In this document: positions 28,681 to 34,281 of the stretch, in pieces
How the letters are laid out: the number at the start of each line of letters is the position of its first letter
Numbering within the stretch: the stretch's first letter is position 1
Origin: an uncultured Clostridia bacterium
Lineage (GTDB): Bacteria > Bacillota > Clostridia > Peptostreptococcales > Anaerovoracaceae
DNA length: 46,476 nucleotides
Assembly: GCA_946006945.1 (NCBI GenBank)
Contig: CAMFZN010000004.1
Coordinates: forward strand, 1 to 46,476
Direction of reading: 5' to 3'
Program-made: the position numbers and the translations under genes
Notes under the pieces: model-generated
Told to the model about the DNA's origin: nothing
Database searches by the model: none
Seen by the model: only the letters and a program-made list of their open reading frames with translations

Positions 28681-28713
28681 AACCACTCATTTACGAATGA
28701 GTGGTTTTTGTTT
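28681..28713 (+). terminator. Rho-independent terminator after tRNA-Leu
   Basis: aaccactcatt-tacg-aatgagtggtt followed by tttgttt. Confidence 0.82.
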
Positions 28714-28757
28714 ACTCTTTTTTAACTATACATATTTCATATTTGGAGGGGAACATT

Positions 28758-29723
28758 ATGAAGATTGTATTTCTTGACTCACACGTTGCCAATCCGGGCG
28801 ATCTTTCATGGGACCGCCTTGAAGCAATCGGCGAGCTTACCGTCTACGAGAGAACCTCAACGACAGAGAGCCCTCTTATTGCAGAAAGAATCGGAAATGC
28901 CGAGATTGTAATTACCAACAAGACACCTATTTCTAGAGATACTCTTGACAAGTGTCCGAGCGTTCGCATAATTGCTGTAATTGCAACCGGATATAATGTA
29001 GTTGATGTAAATGCGGCAGCTGATAAGGGTATCCCGGTTGTAAATGTGCCGGGATATGCCACATCAAACGTCGCACAGTTCAACATCGCACTTCTTCTTG
29101 AGATATGCTCACATATCGGTGAGCATTCGAGAGGAGTATATGAAGGACGATGGGCATCCTGCCCTGACTTCTGCTACTGGGATTATCCTGCTATCTCTCT
29201 TCAGGGCAAGACAGCAGGCATCATTGGTCTTGGAAGCATCGGTCAGGCCACTGCAAGACTTCTCAAGGCCTTCGGCATGGATGTCCTTGGAAGCTCGAGG
29301 CATCAGAAGGATATCCCAGAGGATATTGTTACGCAGTGCAGCACCGAAAGAGTCCTTCAAGAATCAGACATCATTTACCTATGCTGTCCGATGACATCAG
29401 AAACTGAGGGAATAATATGCACTGAGAATATTTACCGCATGAAGGATGGAGTAATAATAATCAATACTGCAAGAGGTCAGCTCGTTAATGAGAATGATCT
29501 GAAAGACGCCCTTGTAAGCGGCAAGGTTCGTGCAGCTGCTGTAGATGTAGTATCCGCAGAGCCTATCAGAGAAGATAATCCTCTCCTAAGTGCGCCAAAC
29601 TGCATAATCACGCCTCACATCGCATGGCTTTCCGATGACGCAAGGCAGCTGATGCTAGACACAACCTGTTCAAACATTGAAGCATATCTTAGCGGCAGGA
29701 AACAGAATGTTGTTAATATGTAA
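28758..29723 (+). CDS. D-2-hydroxyacid dehydrogenase (NAD-binding; start at 28758 preferred over 28701)
   Basis: ggagggg RBS then MKIVFLDSHVANPGDLSWD; IIGLGSIGQATARLLKAFG, INTARGQLVNENDL, ITPHIAWLSDDAR. Confidence 0.9.
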   Translation: MKIVFLDSHVANPGDLSWDRLEAIGELTVYERTSTTESPLIAERIGNAEIVITNKTPISRDTLDKCPSVRIIAVIATGYNVVDVNAAADKGIPVVNVPGYATSNVAQFNIALLLEICSHIGEHSRGVYEGRWASCPDFCYWDYPAISLQGKTAGIIGLGSIGQATARLLKAFGMDVLGSSRHQKDIPEDIVTQCSTERVLQESDIIYLCCPMTSETEGIICTENIYRMKDGVIIINTARGQLVNENDLKDALVSGKVRAAAVDVVSAEPIREDNPLLSAPNCIITPHIAWLSDDARQLMLDTTCSNIEAYLSGRKQNVVNM

Positions 29724-29798: not shown

Positions 29799-31733
29799 CT
29801 ACCTCTCTCCCTTGCCTTCTTTTGTTCCAAAGAATTCGATTATGCTGTCTGCCGCAGCGCCGTTCATGCCTTCTACAGACATAAGCTCGCTTCGGCTCGC
29901 AGCCTTTATCTCATTGATGCTTCCGAAATACTTTAGAAGTGCTGTTCTCCTTCTAGGTCCTATTCCCGGGATGTCCTCGAGCGCAGACCTTATTGTTCTT
30001 TTGCCCCTGACACCTTTCATGAAGCTGATTGCGAATCTGTGAACCTCCTCCTGGACAGTTCCGGTATAACTGAACAGAACAGGATCCTCTCTCAGGTTAA
30101 TCTCGCTTCCATCCTCAAACACAATCGCCCTTGTTCTGTGAGCGTCATCCTTCGCCATTCCTGCAACCGGGATAGACATGCCATAGGCTTCGATTATTTT
30201 AATAACAGCGTGCACCTGCCCAAGGCCTCCATCAATCAACATGAGATCCGGGTATGTGATAAAGCCCTCATCTCCATTTCTGGCCCTTTTGAGTCTCCTG
30301 TAGATTACCTCCTGAAGGCTTCCGTAGTCGTCACCTTTAGAAGCTGTCTTAACCTTGAACTTTCTGTAATCGCTCTTAACAGGTTTTCTTCCTTCATAGA
30401 CAACCATGGCTCCAACAGTATCAAGTCCGTTCATGTTGGATATGTCATATGCCTCAATTCTGTACTCTCGGTCCTCATCCTCAGAAATCACTCTTGGAAC
30501 GCTTCCGCTTATCTCGCAGCATCGCTCGATAATACTCGTAATTCTGCTTCTCAGGAGGCTTTGCTTCTCCTTCTCTCTTTCCAGCCTGTCATCGAGGGAT
30601 TTGGCAAGTTCTATTGAATCTGACGATGCCATGCTGACAAGACTCTTCTTATCTCCCCTTTCAGGAACAAGAATTCTGGTCTTATGAAGGTAGTCATTGC
30701 CGGATGCCGCATTATCCTCGTTCACTCCGTTAAGCATCTCCTCAAGGAGACTCTGGTCATCGACCGGTGCTGAAAGAAGAATCTCCTTAGGCAGCCTCAT
30801 GGCTGACGGATAGTGCTGCTTGATAAAAGCAGATACTATGCCCTCTGCCGCCTTCCTCTCCTCTAGTGCAAAACCATTATCCCTTACCGGAATCACCTCA
30901 CGTCCCGTCATCTTGCCGTCTCTTACGTGATATAACGAAACAATGGCGTTGTTTTCTGATACAACAGGGATGAGAATATCCATGTCGCTATGCGAGGTAA
31001 GTGTTGCTCTCTGTGTCTCGCCGATAGTTCTAAGAGAGGTGATGTAGTCTCTGTATCTGGCTGCCTCCTCGAATTCGAGTCTGTCAGATGCATCAAGCAT
31101 TTTCTTCTCAAGCTTCTTTATTAGCGCCTGATCCTTGCCTCCAAGTATGTCCATAACCTCGTCAATCAGAGCTCTGTACTCAAGTCTGTTGACGCTTCCG
31201 AGACATACACCGGGACACTTTCCGATGTGATAATTAAGACACGGCCTTATTCCTTCACGAAATGTTATCTGCCTGCATTTCTTTAGCATATACATCTCGT
31301 CAATCAGCTTCAGCGTCTGACTGACAGCACCTGCGTCGGTATAAGGTCCGAAATACTTGTCTCCGTCACGCTCCACCTGTCTTGTCTTGTATACCCTTGG
31401 ATAAGGTTCGCTTAGGGTAACCTTGATATATGGATAGCTTTTGTCATCTTTAAGAAGAATGTTATACTTCGGCTTGTATTTCTTTATGAGATTGCACTCC
31501 AAAACCAGCGCTTCCATCTCAGTGGCACACTTTATGTAGTCAAATTCTGCAACCACACTTACCATCGCCCTGACCTTAGGATCGAGTGCCTGAGTGTTTC
31601 TGAAGTACTGCCTTACCCTGTTTCTGAGATTAATCGCCTTGCCGACATATATTATTTCTCCAAGGCTGTCCTTGTGCATGTATACACCAGGACAGGTTGG
31701 AAGCTTCTTAAGTTCCTCCTCAATGACAAACAT
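29799..31733 (-). CDS. uvrC: Excinuclease ABC subunit C
   Basis: LKKLPTCPGVYMHKDSLGEIIYVGKAINLRNRVRQYF, YDISNMNGLDTVGAMVVYEGRKPVKSDYRKFKVK, DLMLIDGGLGQVHAV, C-terminal HhH. Confidence 0.97.
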   Translation of the reverse strand: MFVIEEELKKLPTCPGVYMHKDSLGEIIYVGKAINLRNRVRQYFRNTQALDPKVRAMVSVVAEFDYIKCATEMEALVLECNLIKKYKPKYNILLKDDKSYPYIKVTLSEPYPRVYKTRQVERDGDKYFGPYTDAGAVSQTLKLIDEMYMLKKCRQITFREGIRPCLNYHIGKCPGVCLGSVNRLEYRALIDEVMDILGGKDQALIKKLEKKMLDASDRLEFEEAARYRDYITSLRTIGETQRATLTSHSDMDILIPVVSENNAIVSLYHVRDGKMTGREVIPVRDNGFALEERKAAEGIVSAFIKQHYPSAMRLPKEILLSAPVDDQSLLEEMLNGVNEDNAASGNDYLHKTRILVPERGDKKSLVSMASSDSIELAKSLDDRLEREKEKQSLLRSRITSIIERCCEISGSVPRVISEDEDREYRIEAYDISNMNGLDTVGAMVVYEGRKPVKSDYRKFKVKTASKGDDYGSLQEVIYRRLKRARNGDEGFITYPDLMLIDGGLGQVHAVIKIIEAYGMSIPVAGMAKDDAHRTRAIVFEDGSEINLREDPVLFSYTGTVQEEVHRFAISFMKGVRGKRTIRSALEDIPGIGPRRRTALLKYFGSINEIKAASRSELMSVEGMNGAAADSIIEFFGTKEGKGER

Positions 31734-33058
31734 CAGTGATATGTCCAGTTTCTTCTGGCTCTATCCTCCTCTATCGCCTTCTGTTTCATTGCAAGCTCAC
31801 GAATTCTGGCCTGCCTCTGTCTTTCCTTAATTCTGCGACGTTTTGCCCTTCTGATTCTTCCTCTGATGAAAAGAAAGAGAAGTGCCGCTGCTGCAGCTGC
31901 AATTCCTACGAAAGCAGCATTCGAAATGTATATATATGACGGGAACCAGCCCGTATTGATATCCTCATTTGTCACAACATCTACTGTGCCCTTAAGCTCA
32001 TCGGCTACATATATTCTGAATTCACCGATTTTGGTTCCCTTGCTGATAGGAGCCTTAAGTCTGTCCTGCATTACTACACGAGTCTGAACAAGGCTGGTGC
32101 TTCCTTCAGGAGGAACATAGGCATATCCCTTTGTCTTTGTATAGCCGCTGACTCTCACCTTTGCGCCATGCTTTACCATGACACTTCCGACTTTTTTGCC
32201 CGCCTTTACAATAACATCCTTGGATGCATTCTCATGTCCGTAATCAGTCAGAAGTGAAGCCTCCTTTGAAACGCCTTCCTTTGTGGTTCCGAGAGAAACA
32301 GCTATTATCTGCATTCCGTCGCGACGCGATATCATAACCGACTGATATGTCTTGCCGGCATTGTTAAGAGTTCCGGTAAGCGCACCCTCAAAGCCGTCAA
32401 TGTTTCCGCCTCCGCTGCCTTGCCTAAGTGCTTCAGAGATAAAAGGGTATCTCATCGCATATTGAGCAATTACCGCTATGTCATATGCTGATGAATACTG
32501 ATTGTTGTCGCCCTTGCCCGTCGGATTCATGAACTGAGTGTTCATAAGCTCAAGCTCCATAGCCTTTGAATTCATCTCGCTGACGAAAATCTCTTCCTTT
32601 GTTGCAGAATAAAGACTGAGTGCATATGCAGCTTCATCAGAATCTCTGGTGAGCATCGCTGTAAGAAGGTCGGATACCTTAACCTCCTGCCCCTTCTTAT
32701 ATATATCCCCAAGCTTATCTGCCTTGCTGCTTATGGTTACAATGTTGTTGTATTCTTTATCATCGTGCATATTGTCAATTACAACCATTGCTGTCATAAG
32801 CTTGACAAGATCTCCCGGAGGAAGCTTCCTGTCCTCATGTAATCCGTATACCACCTGACTCGTGGATCCGGAGAAGGAGACTGCACCGCTTGAGTGAATG
32901 TCACTCTCCTTAATATCAGCCTTTGATGCGCCAAAAACCGCATCAAAACTGATGGTGACCATCAGCATCAGCATAATCAGTATTGCTGCTATTGTGGTCA
33001 CCATCTCTTTAATCCTTTGAGAATATTCAGTTGAGAAATGATGAGTACTATTTCTCAT
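31733..33058 (-). CDS. DacA-like (D-alanyl-D-alanine carboxypeptidase, S11 fold) membrane protein with degenerate catalytic motifs (probable pseudoenzyme)
   Basis: Overall DacA layout (N-terminal signal/TM, KLPPGDLVKLMTAMVVID, MNSKAMELELMNTQFMNPTGKGDNNQYSSAYDIAVIAQYAM, C-terminal beta domain, TM, basic tail), but SxxK, SxN and KTG read DLVK, DSD and LTG. Confidence 0.85.
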   Translation of the reverse strand: MRNSTHHFSTEYSQRIKEMVTTIAAILIMLMLMVTISFDAVFGASKADIKESDIHSSGAVSFSGSTSQVVYGLHEDRKLPPGDLVKLMTAMVVIDNMHDDKEYNNIVTISSKADKLGDIYKKGQEVKVSDLLTAMLTRDSDEAAYALSLYSATKEEIFVSEMNSKAMELELMNTQFMNPTGKGDNNQYSSAYDIAVIAQYAMRYPFISEALRQGSGGGNIDGFEGALTGTLNNAGKTYQSVMISRRDGMQIIAVSLGTTKEGVSKEASLLTDYGHENASKDVIVKAGKKVGSVMVKHGAKVRVSGYTKTKGYAYVPPEGSTSLVQTRVVMQDRLKAPISKGTKIGEFRIYVADELKGTVDVVTNEDINTGWFPSYIYISNAAFVGIAAAAAALLFLFIRGRIRRAKRRRIKERQRQARIRELAMKQKAIEEDRARRNWTYH

Positions 33059-33087
33059 TAGAATTCCTTCCCTATTGTTTCAGTCAA

Positions 33088-34221
33088 TTATCCGAGCACT
33101 CTTGTTCTGATAACGTAAGGAGCCTCAAATACGTTAGGGCATCCTGACTTAACTGCGCAGATAACATATCCGTAGTCGCCTCTCTTGCCAGAAGCCATAT
33201 CTACGAGGCAATCTCCATAGAATGCCTTGAACTCCTCAGCCTTATCCTCTGCATCCTTGTAGAGAGCGCAGATTCTCTTTGTACCCTCGATGCAGTCAAG
33301 TGATACTGCAGGATAGTTAACTGAGCATCTGATGTTACCGCATCCGAGGTAATCCATAAGCTCCTCAGCAGCCATAACTGCGCAGTTCTCCTCAGCCTCA
33401 GCAGTTGATGCTCCAAGGTGTGGAGTTGCAACGATTCCAGGCACTCCGATTGTCTCCTCGTTAGCAAGGTCAGTCATGTATTTTCTGATCTTTCCTGTCT
33501 CAAGAGCAGCCTTGATGTCATCTACAACTACAAGGTCAGGTCTTGCGAAGTTAAGGATGATAGCTCCGTCCTTCATGTTAGCGATGAGATCCTTGTTGAT
33601 CATACCCTTAGTTGCAGGAAGTGATGGAACGTGGATTGATACGAAGTCACACTCCTTAACCATCTCTGCTACATCATCAAACATCTTTACATCAGCAGTA
33701 AGACATGGATGAGGTCTGAATGCCTCGTATCCGCATACCTTCATGCCGAGAGCCTCACATGAGTTGGCAATCTTAGCTCCGATAGCACCAAGTCCGATAA
33801 TACCGATAGTCTTGCCGAGAATCTCAGTTCCTGCGTAATTCTTCTTACCCTTCTCAACGTCTGATGATACATCATCACCCTCGAGAGTATTAGCCCATGC
33901 GATACCCTCATACATGTTTCTTGCGCCCATGATAAGAGCTGCAAGCACAAGCTCCTTAACTGCGTTTGAGTTAGCTCCAGGTGCGTTGAATACTACGATT
34001 CCCTGATCAGCGCACTTGTCGAGCGGAATATTGTTAACTCCTGCACCTGCTCTTCCGATAGCGAGCAGATTCTCAGAGAAATCCATGTCGTGCATCTTGA
34101 ATGATCTTACGATGATACCGTTAGCCTGATCTACATCATCTGTAAGAACATAATTCTCAGTAAGCTTAGAAAGACCTACCTGTGAAATGTTGTTGAGAGT
34201 ACCGATATAATACTTCTCCAT
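33088..34221 (-). CDS. 3-phosphoglycerate dehydrogenase-like D-2-hydroxyacid dehydrogenase (start at 34221 preferred)
   Basis: IGRAGAGVNNIPLDKCADQGIVVFNAPGANSNAVKELVLAAL, IGIIGLGAIGAKIANSCEALGMKV, ILNFARPDLV, TPHLGASTAEAEENC. Confidence 0.88.
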   Translation of the reverse strand: MEKYYIGTLNNISQVGLSKLTENYVLTDDVDQANGIIVRSFKMHDMDFSENLLAIGRAGAGVNNIPLDKCADQGIVVFNAPGANSNAVKELVLAALIMGARNMYEGIAWANTLEGDDVSSDVEKGKKNYAGTEILGKTIGIIGLGAIGAKIANSCEALGMKVCGYEAFRPHPCLTADVKMFDDVAEMVKECDFVSIHVPSLPATKGMINKDLIANMKDGAIILNFARPDLVVVDDIKAALETGKIRKYMTDLANEETIGVPGIVATPHLGASTAEAEENCAVMAAEELMDYLGCGNIRCSVNYPAVSLDCIEGTKRICALYKDAEDKAEEFKAFYGDCLVDMASGKRGDYGYVICAVKSGCPNVFEAPYVIRTRVLG

Positions 34222-34281
34222 GTCTCTGTACCTCCTGTTTTTCAAGAAACTGTTACTAATTACGTATCTGTTAGTATATCA

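Follow-up and report, generated by a model that had tools for sequence, protein, structure and literature searches.

Repeated loss of the catalytic motifs in a tail-bearing family of PBP5-type (S11) proteins of the Anaerovoracaceae

Non-catalytic regulators are well known among the LytM metallopeptidases. LytM proteins of the DipM/EnvC type act as non-catalytic regulators of wall hydrolases (PMC10336132), and in H. pylori Csd1/Csd2 the active site of Csd2 is degenerate (PMC5053510). The literature searched, which is poor in subscription journals, yielded no description of a conserved S11 (PBP5-type) family without catalysis. The protein analyzed here resembles the D,D-carboxypeptidases of the DacA/PBP5 type (MEROPS S11, PF00768 and PF07943) in its probable fold, domain order, secretion signal and attachment to the membrane at the C-terminus. 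In contrast to these enzymes, it lacks all three catalytic motifs, and a transmembrane helix followed by a basic cytoplasmic tail is present where DacA/PBP5 has an amphipathic anchor helix. It is encoded in a stretch of 46,476 nucleotides (the window), which is part of a 1.26-Mb draft genome that is 81% complete, belongs to NCBI family Anaerovoracaceae and has Mogibacterium among its named relatives.

Locus and protein architecture

The gene, the parts of its product and its two neighbours are located in the window as follows.

29799..31733, minus strand: uvrC, the downstream neighbour, overlapping the S11 gene by one base and conserved across the family (ORF list, neighbourhood comparison)
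31733..33058, minus strand: S11 (DacA/PBP5-type) protein of 441 aa, very likely catalytically dead (Pfam, PDB comparison, orthologue alignment)
31736..31864, minus strand: basic cytoplasmic tail, residues 399-441, ending EEDRARRNWTYH (profile searches, alignment)
31865..31918, minus strand: C-terminal transmembrane helix, residues 381-398 (model, sequence)
31919..31954, minus strand: conserved juxtamembrane segment GW.PS.YISN, residues 369-380 (alignments)
31955..32212, minus strand: PBP5 C-terminal domain (PBP5_C), residues 283-368 (Pfam, identity comparison)
32273..32887, minus strand: former catalytic (S11) domain, residues 58-262 (Pfam, PDB, Foldseek)
32927..33016, minus strand: N-terminal hydrophobic signal segment, approximately residues 15-44 (orthologue alignment, sequence)
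33065..33073, minus strand: ribosome-binding-like AGGGAAGGA, 6 nt 5' of the ATG (read from sequence)
33088..34245, minus strand: serA-like 2-hydroxyacid dehydrogenase, the upstream neighbour, conserved across the family (ORF list, neighbourhood comparison)

The open reading frame at 31733-33058 on the minus strand starts with an ATG at 33058 and encodes 441 amino acids without interruption. Both the S11 domain (E=7e-32, 111.2 bits against a curated cut-off of 27.6) and PBP5_C (PF07943; E=7e-13, 48.9 bits against a cut-off of 21.2) were detected by Pfam, in agreement with the full-length DacA layout without stops described in the initial annotation. The signal segment, the C-terminal transmembrane helix and the polybasic tail it had also described were likewise recovered. 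An Ala or Gly at the likely signal-peptidase site is conserved in the orthologue alignment. The tail of the window protein (RGRIRRAKRRR...IEEDRARRNWTYH) consists of 43 residues, with 18 K/R and 5 D/E. In the PDB comparison, residues 59-371 form the span related to solved PBP5 structures, with P. aeruginosa PBP5 (2.7e-28), E. coli DacD and B. subtilis DacB as the top relatives. An AF2 model was built from three sequences and, because of the resulting low confidence (pLDDT 53.6), served as a fold check only; with this weak model as the query, the top Foldseek matches were DacB, PBP5 and PBP6 (E down to 5e-14). A match to PDB entry 9a4z prompted a search for work on DacA with YxkC, and no such paper was found in the literature searched.

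Most of the 20 regions compared (approximately 20 genera) show the gene order serA - serC - (iPGM-like PF10143) - S11 - uvrC - DUF1292 in recognisable form, whether the S11 copy is living or dead, dead referring here to copies that have lost the motifs. These copies are therefore positional orthologues in which catalysis was lost in place. The uvrC gene adjoins the S11 gene in nearly all genera examined, in some relatives with a gap; in the window, the S11 stop and the uvrC start share one base (TGATG). The window gene, too, is flanked by serA and uvrC, but serA (33088-34245) lies directly upstream on the same strand and is not divergent; no serC was detected in the window. Most relatives have a divergent serA, with serC in between. 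Many other genera carry the gene of an iPGM-like metalloenzyme (PF10143; e.g. L194:6286-7506) between serC and the S11 gene, a place from which it is absent in the window's genus. A second D-2-hydroxyacid dehydrogenase is encoded at 28701-29723 of the window, on the opposite strand just beyond uvrC.

The three former catalytic motifs and their fate in the orthologues

The positions of the catalytic motifs are occupied in the window protein by the following residues.

32801..32812, minus strand: former SxxK, now D83-L-V-K86 (orthologue and 107-sequence alignments)
32636..32644, minus strand: former SxN, now D139-S-D141 (orthologue and 107-sequence alignments)
32372..32380, minus strand: former KTG, now L227-T-G229 (alignments)

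The initial annotation had reported all three motifs as altered, and its reading proved exact in residues and coordinates. Asp83 (GAT, 32810-32812) occupies the position of the SxxK serine, the nucleophile, while Asp139-Ser140-Asp141 replaces SxN and Leu227 (32378-32380) turns KTG into LTG; the PDB alignments and the 107-sequence alignment agree in placing D83, DSD and LTG opposite the three motifs. Its statement that Ser and Lys are both missing holds for the serine and for the lysine of KTG and has to be corrected for the SxxK lysine, which is retained as K86. Neither SxN nor KTG was found anywhere in the 441-aa protein by a whole-sequence motif check, and an intact SxxK/SxN/KTG set is not present elsewhere in the frame. 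The only candidate was a chance S151-A-T-K154, which is misplaced after the SxN helix and not conserved. Most relatives have a stretch of approximately 28 residues immediately ahead of the KTG strand that is missing in the window protein as well as in L005 and L008; in L006/L007, approximately 38 residues are missing there. In serine PBPs, no acyl-enzyme can form without the nucleophile, and by this established chemistry its formation would therefore not be possible in the window protein. Judged from the sequences, D,D-carboxypeptidase activity or the usual penicillin binding is very likely not to be expected of the window protein and its orthologues.

A first alignment of 31 sequences comprised the window protein and the orthologues of 28 congeners, M. 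timidum and M. pumilum; one further, truncated row (L028) stood beside these. SxxK, SxN and KTG are all absent in 31 of 31 of these orthologues from the window's genus and Mogibacterium. A congener found later (G252, L073) retains SxxK alone. Across the orthologues, eight different residues (D, S, G, A, K, N, R or C) occur where the serine would be, and K, M, Q, L or I where the SxxK lysine would be; SxN and KTG are likewise variable. Thus, the question of whether D/DSD/LTG are conserved among orthologues was answered in the negative by the 31-sequence alignment, and because the former motif positions are free to vary, a new active site made of these residues is ruled out. The core positions A90, M91, L136 and L147 near the old sites are invariant in the dead clade; taken together with the variable motif sites, this indicates that the fold was kept and the active site was not.

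Selection was assessed by pairwise Nei-Gojobori estimates of omega for the dead-clade orthologues with our own script. Most close pairs gave values of approximately 0.04-0.13 over residues 58-441, and values in the former catalytic domain of close pairs were approximately 0.04-0.16; omega reached 0.25 in more divergent, near-saturated pairs. The dead-clade fold is thus under strong purifying selection, and the genes are not decaying. The low dN/dS across relatives, the absence of the motifs in all 31 sequences and the conserved gene order uphold the initial view of a maintained non-catalytic protein, and a strain-specific decaying copy is ruled out by orthologues that share the dead state at low omega. 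In six dead orthologues (L012, L019, L020, L024, L031, L032), the signal peptide is followed by long insertions of low complexity, and the cytoplasmic tail has long extra stretches that contain PRTxDxR-like segments.

The tail-bearing family and repeated loss of catalysis

A profile of residues 300-441 (A1) matches tail-bearing S11 proteins across the Anaerovoracaceae at nearly full length. At E<=1e-12, 291 genomes sampled from the class gave matches in 6, each of which belongs to the window's family (f1), and no tail-bearing S11 protein was detected outside this family among these genomes. By its transmembrane helix and basic tail, the window protein is a member of the tail-bearing DacA family defined by this profile. 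The family tail ending ...EEDRRRRNWxY is conserved, and the tail of the window protein has D432, R433, R436 and W438 as invariant positions. In 60 genomes, the tail profile matched only at the end of S11-sized frames, which rules out a tail common to other kinds of protein. The tail-bearing DacAs of other Anaerovoracaceae genera (L083, L088, L090, L094, L081) are, like the window protein, positional orthologues and share with it GW.PS...ISN, the transmembrane helix and a basic tail ending in RxWx(F/Y); unlike it, they have kept SxxK, SxN and mostly KTG. SxxK and SxN are retained in most other genera, in nearly all of these together with KTG. What is seen is therefore a repeated loss of catalysis, in an enzyme whose cytoplasmic tail is conserved.

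Within the dead clade, PBP5_C and the tail have become the more conserved parts, in place of the catalytic domain. Mean pairwise identities of the catalytic domain, PBP5_C and the tail are 0.44, 0.39 and 0.29 among 44 tail-bearing proteins scored as intact, and 0.49, 0.61 and 0.52 in the dead clade; of the folded parts there, PBP5_C is the best conserved. For the tail-less paralogues of the genus, the values are 0.56 for the catalytic domain and 0.40 for PBP5_C.

Trees for the analysis of losses were computed without the motif columns; they are quick trees in which the place of the long rows L113 and L123 is uncertain. Loss requires six changes on the 106-sequence tree, four of them forced by well-supported branches, and four changes on a 51-sequence subset tree. 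A single clade of all dead sequences was rejected (p-AU 4.4e-12), ruling out one loss common to all dead copies. The catalytic motifs were thus lost at least four separate times in the family. The first dead lineage is the Mogibacterium-type clade with the window protein, whose sister L081 is intact; its 12 rows in the 51-sequence subset form one branch with a support of about 85, which is not decisive. The others are found in g28 (L119, L120, L129), in g25 (L089, L098, L101, L110; L088 is intact) and in g21 (L086 and L095, with L105 partial and L113 of uncertain place; L090-L092 are intact).

In two g28 proteins (L120 and L129, from G256 and G185), the former catalytic domain is eroded almost past recognition by Pfam, and the transmembrane helix and the tail (EEKRRRNWPY) are still present. 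In g25, the serine is changed to threonine (TTTK) or kept in L101, L098 and L089, SxN reads NSS or NSD and KTG is lost; their congener G124 (L088), with no other S11 gene detected, has kept all motifs. L093 and L106 (g21) read KNG and L107 and L108 (g24) KLG with intact SxxK and SxN. These four, which a lenient KTG pattern had scored as intact and which are treated here as intact at SxxK and SxN only, are possible intermediate stages of loss.

Another S11 gene is present in 24 of 25 dead-copy genomes that are at least 90% complete. Among 20 further S11 loci read from congeners, 17 encode tail-less DacAs with the motifs PYS.TK / S[AG]N / K[TS]G and the same GW.PS.YISN and transmembrane anchor, and three encode another S11 type. 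Tail-less paralogues with intact motifs also occur in g26 and g52 (L150, L146, L149). All these tail-less copies group as one clade inside the tail-bearing family (98% SH-aLRT), the pattern expected from duplication. Outside the window's genus, 13 of 14 dead-copy genomes carry another S11 gene, in most cases with the three motifs intact or nearly so; that of G256 reads KPG, and in that of G185 (L147) the SxxK lysine is changed in the alignment. In nine genomes, the tail-bearing copy is the only S11 detected, and it is intact in all nine; the exception is G307, with a dead copy and no other S11 detected. The association of loss with a second S11 gene (Fisher p=0.20 without the window's genus group, 0.043 with it) is suggestive only, because the genomes are not independent, and the same holds for a second S11 as the explanation of loss. 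No second S11 gene, including the canonical DacA that the initial annotation had considered, was found in the 81% complete window genome. In relatives where both genes share a contig, the canonical paralogue lies approximately 17-44 kb upstream of the dead gene, and the window's contig ends 13 kb upstream, short of that place. The combination of a tail-less intact paralogue and a dead tail-bearing copy in Mogibacterium-type genera suggests a division of labour.

A proposed adaptor or sensor and its competing explanations

Since the active site was lost and the rest, above all the anchor region and the tail, was kept, the protein is probably a structural adaptor or sensor. We favour, with moderate confidence, a pseudoenzyme that is the positional orthologue of a tail-bearing DacA and would now act as a non-catalytic, membrane-spanning adaptor or sensor of wall remodelling; this role, with its partner and peptidoglycan binding, is what we infer from the sequence comparisons. 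The parts that were kept point to docking, outside via the PBP5_C or S11 surface and inside via the tail. The ancestral gene probably did both jobs, i.e. catalysis and the function of the tail, and a duplication in Mogibacterium-type genera would have resulted in a tail-less catalytic copy and a tail-bearing dead copy. In the proposed arrangement, a cleavable signal would be followed by the extracellular S11/PBP5_C fold, GW.PS.YISN, the transmembrane helix and the basic helical cytoplasmic tail. The secreted S11/PBP5_C part may be located at wall-remodelling sites, where it would perhaps dock on the tail-less DacA paralogue that is still active, or on a different wall enzyme. On the other side of the membrane, the helical, basic tail with its end (D/E)EDRRRRxWx(Y/F) may bind a cytoplasmic partner or the inner face of the membrane. 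The adaptor would thereby link the state or position of the wall to the cell interior.

Against the adaptor or sensor stand the link between loss and a second S11, which loses significance once the window's genus group is left out (Fisher p=0.20), the weak AF2 model (pLDDT 53.6), the lack of a second S11 in the window genome (81% complete) and the conservation of the tail in intact enzymes too, so that the tail may serve anchoring or placement only. The chief rival builds on such an anchor: a regulatory subunit acting only outside the cell would form a heterodimer with an active DacA paralogue or another wall hydrolase via S11/PBP5_C. Active tail-less paralogues co-occurring with dead copies, PBP5_C as the best conserved folded part and precedents in another fold, Csd1/Csd2 (PMC5053510) and DipM/EnvC-type LytM regulators (PMC10336132), are consistent with this subunit, which we consider possible but rather unlikely: in the dead clade, the tail and the ectodomain are conserved to about the same degree, and the invariant D432, R433, R436 and W438 exceed the needs of plain anchoring.

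Retention of the gene for operon reasons, with its translation coupled to that of uvrC, or as a spacer that binds the wall without signalling, could draw on the one-base overlap and on the adjacency to uvrC in nearly all genera examined. However, coupling needs no conserved 441-aa protein, the amino-acid sequence is under purifying selection and some relatives have a gap between S11 and uvrC, which makes this reading improbable. That the protein is still an enzyme, with a new chemistry such as an Asp nucleophile or a shifted active site, appears very improbable even though K86 is kept in the window protein and some orthologues and the pocket walls are conserved, as the Ser and Lys sites (D/S/G/A/K/N/R/C and K/M/Q/L/I), SxN and KTG vary, several lineages, that of the window protein among them, have lost the loop ahead of KTG and no new conserved set of polar residues was seen. 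A decaying pseudogene or an assembly artefact might be suspected from a draft genome (81% complete) with no other S11 found, and would be the least credible explanation given the full-length frame with its ribosome-binding site, the dead state of 31 of 31 aligned orthologues, the low omega and the conserved gene order; at clade level, it is already refuted. On the broader claim of a new class of S11 pseudoenzymes, in which catalysis was repeatedly lost and moved to a tail-less duplicate or another S11 while the tail and PBP5_C were kept for an adaptor from wall to cytoplasm, our judgement is evenly balanced.

Catalysis has been lost repeatedly in nature while other orthologues at this locus stayed intact, and this amounts to a ready-made natural experiment. 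Part of the function of a low-molecular-weight PBP would accordingly be independent of its active site, with the tail and PBP5_C indicated as the key parts; if true, a 'housekeeping' carboxypeptidase has a second, catalysis-independent function. Such genes get named 'D-alanyl-D-alanine carboxypeptidase', very likely wrongly. As known counterparts, EnvC, NlpD and DipM (PMC10336132) and H. pylori Csd2 (PMC5053510) are likewise wall-hydrolase folds without catalysis that were kept as regulators or scaffolds; they differ from the protein described here in having an unrelated metallopeptidase fold and no such cytoplasmic tail.
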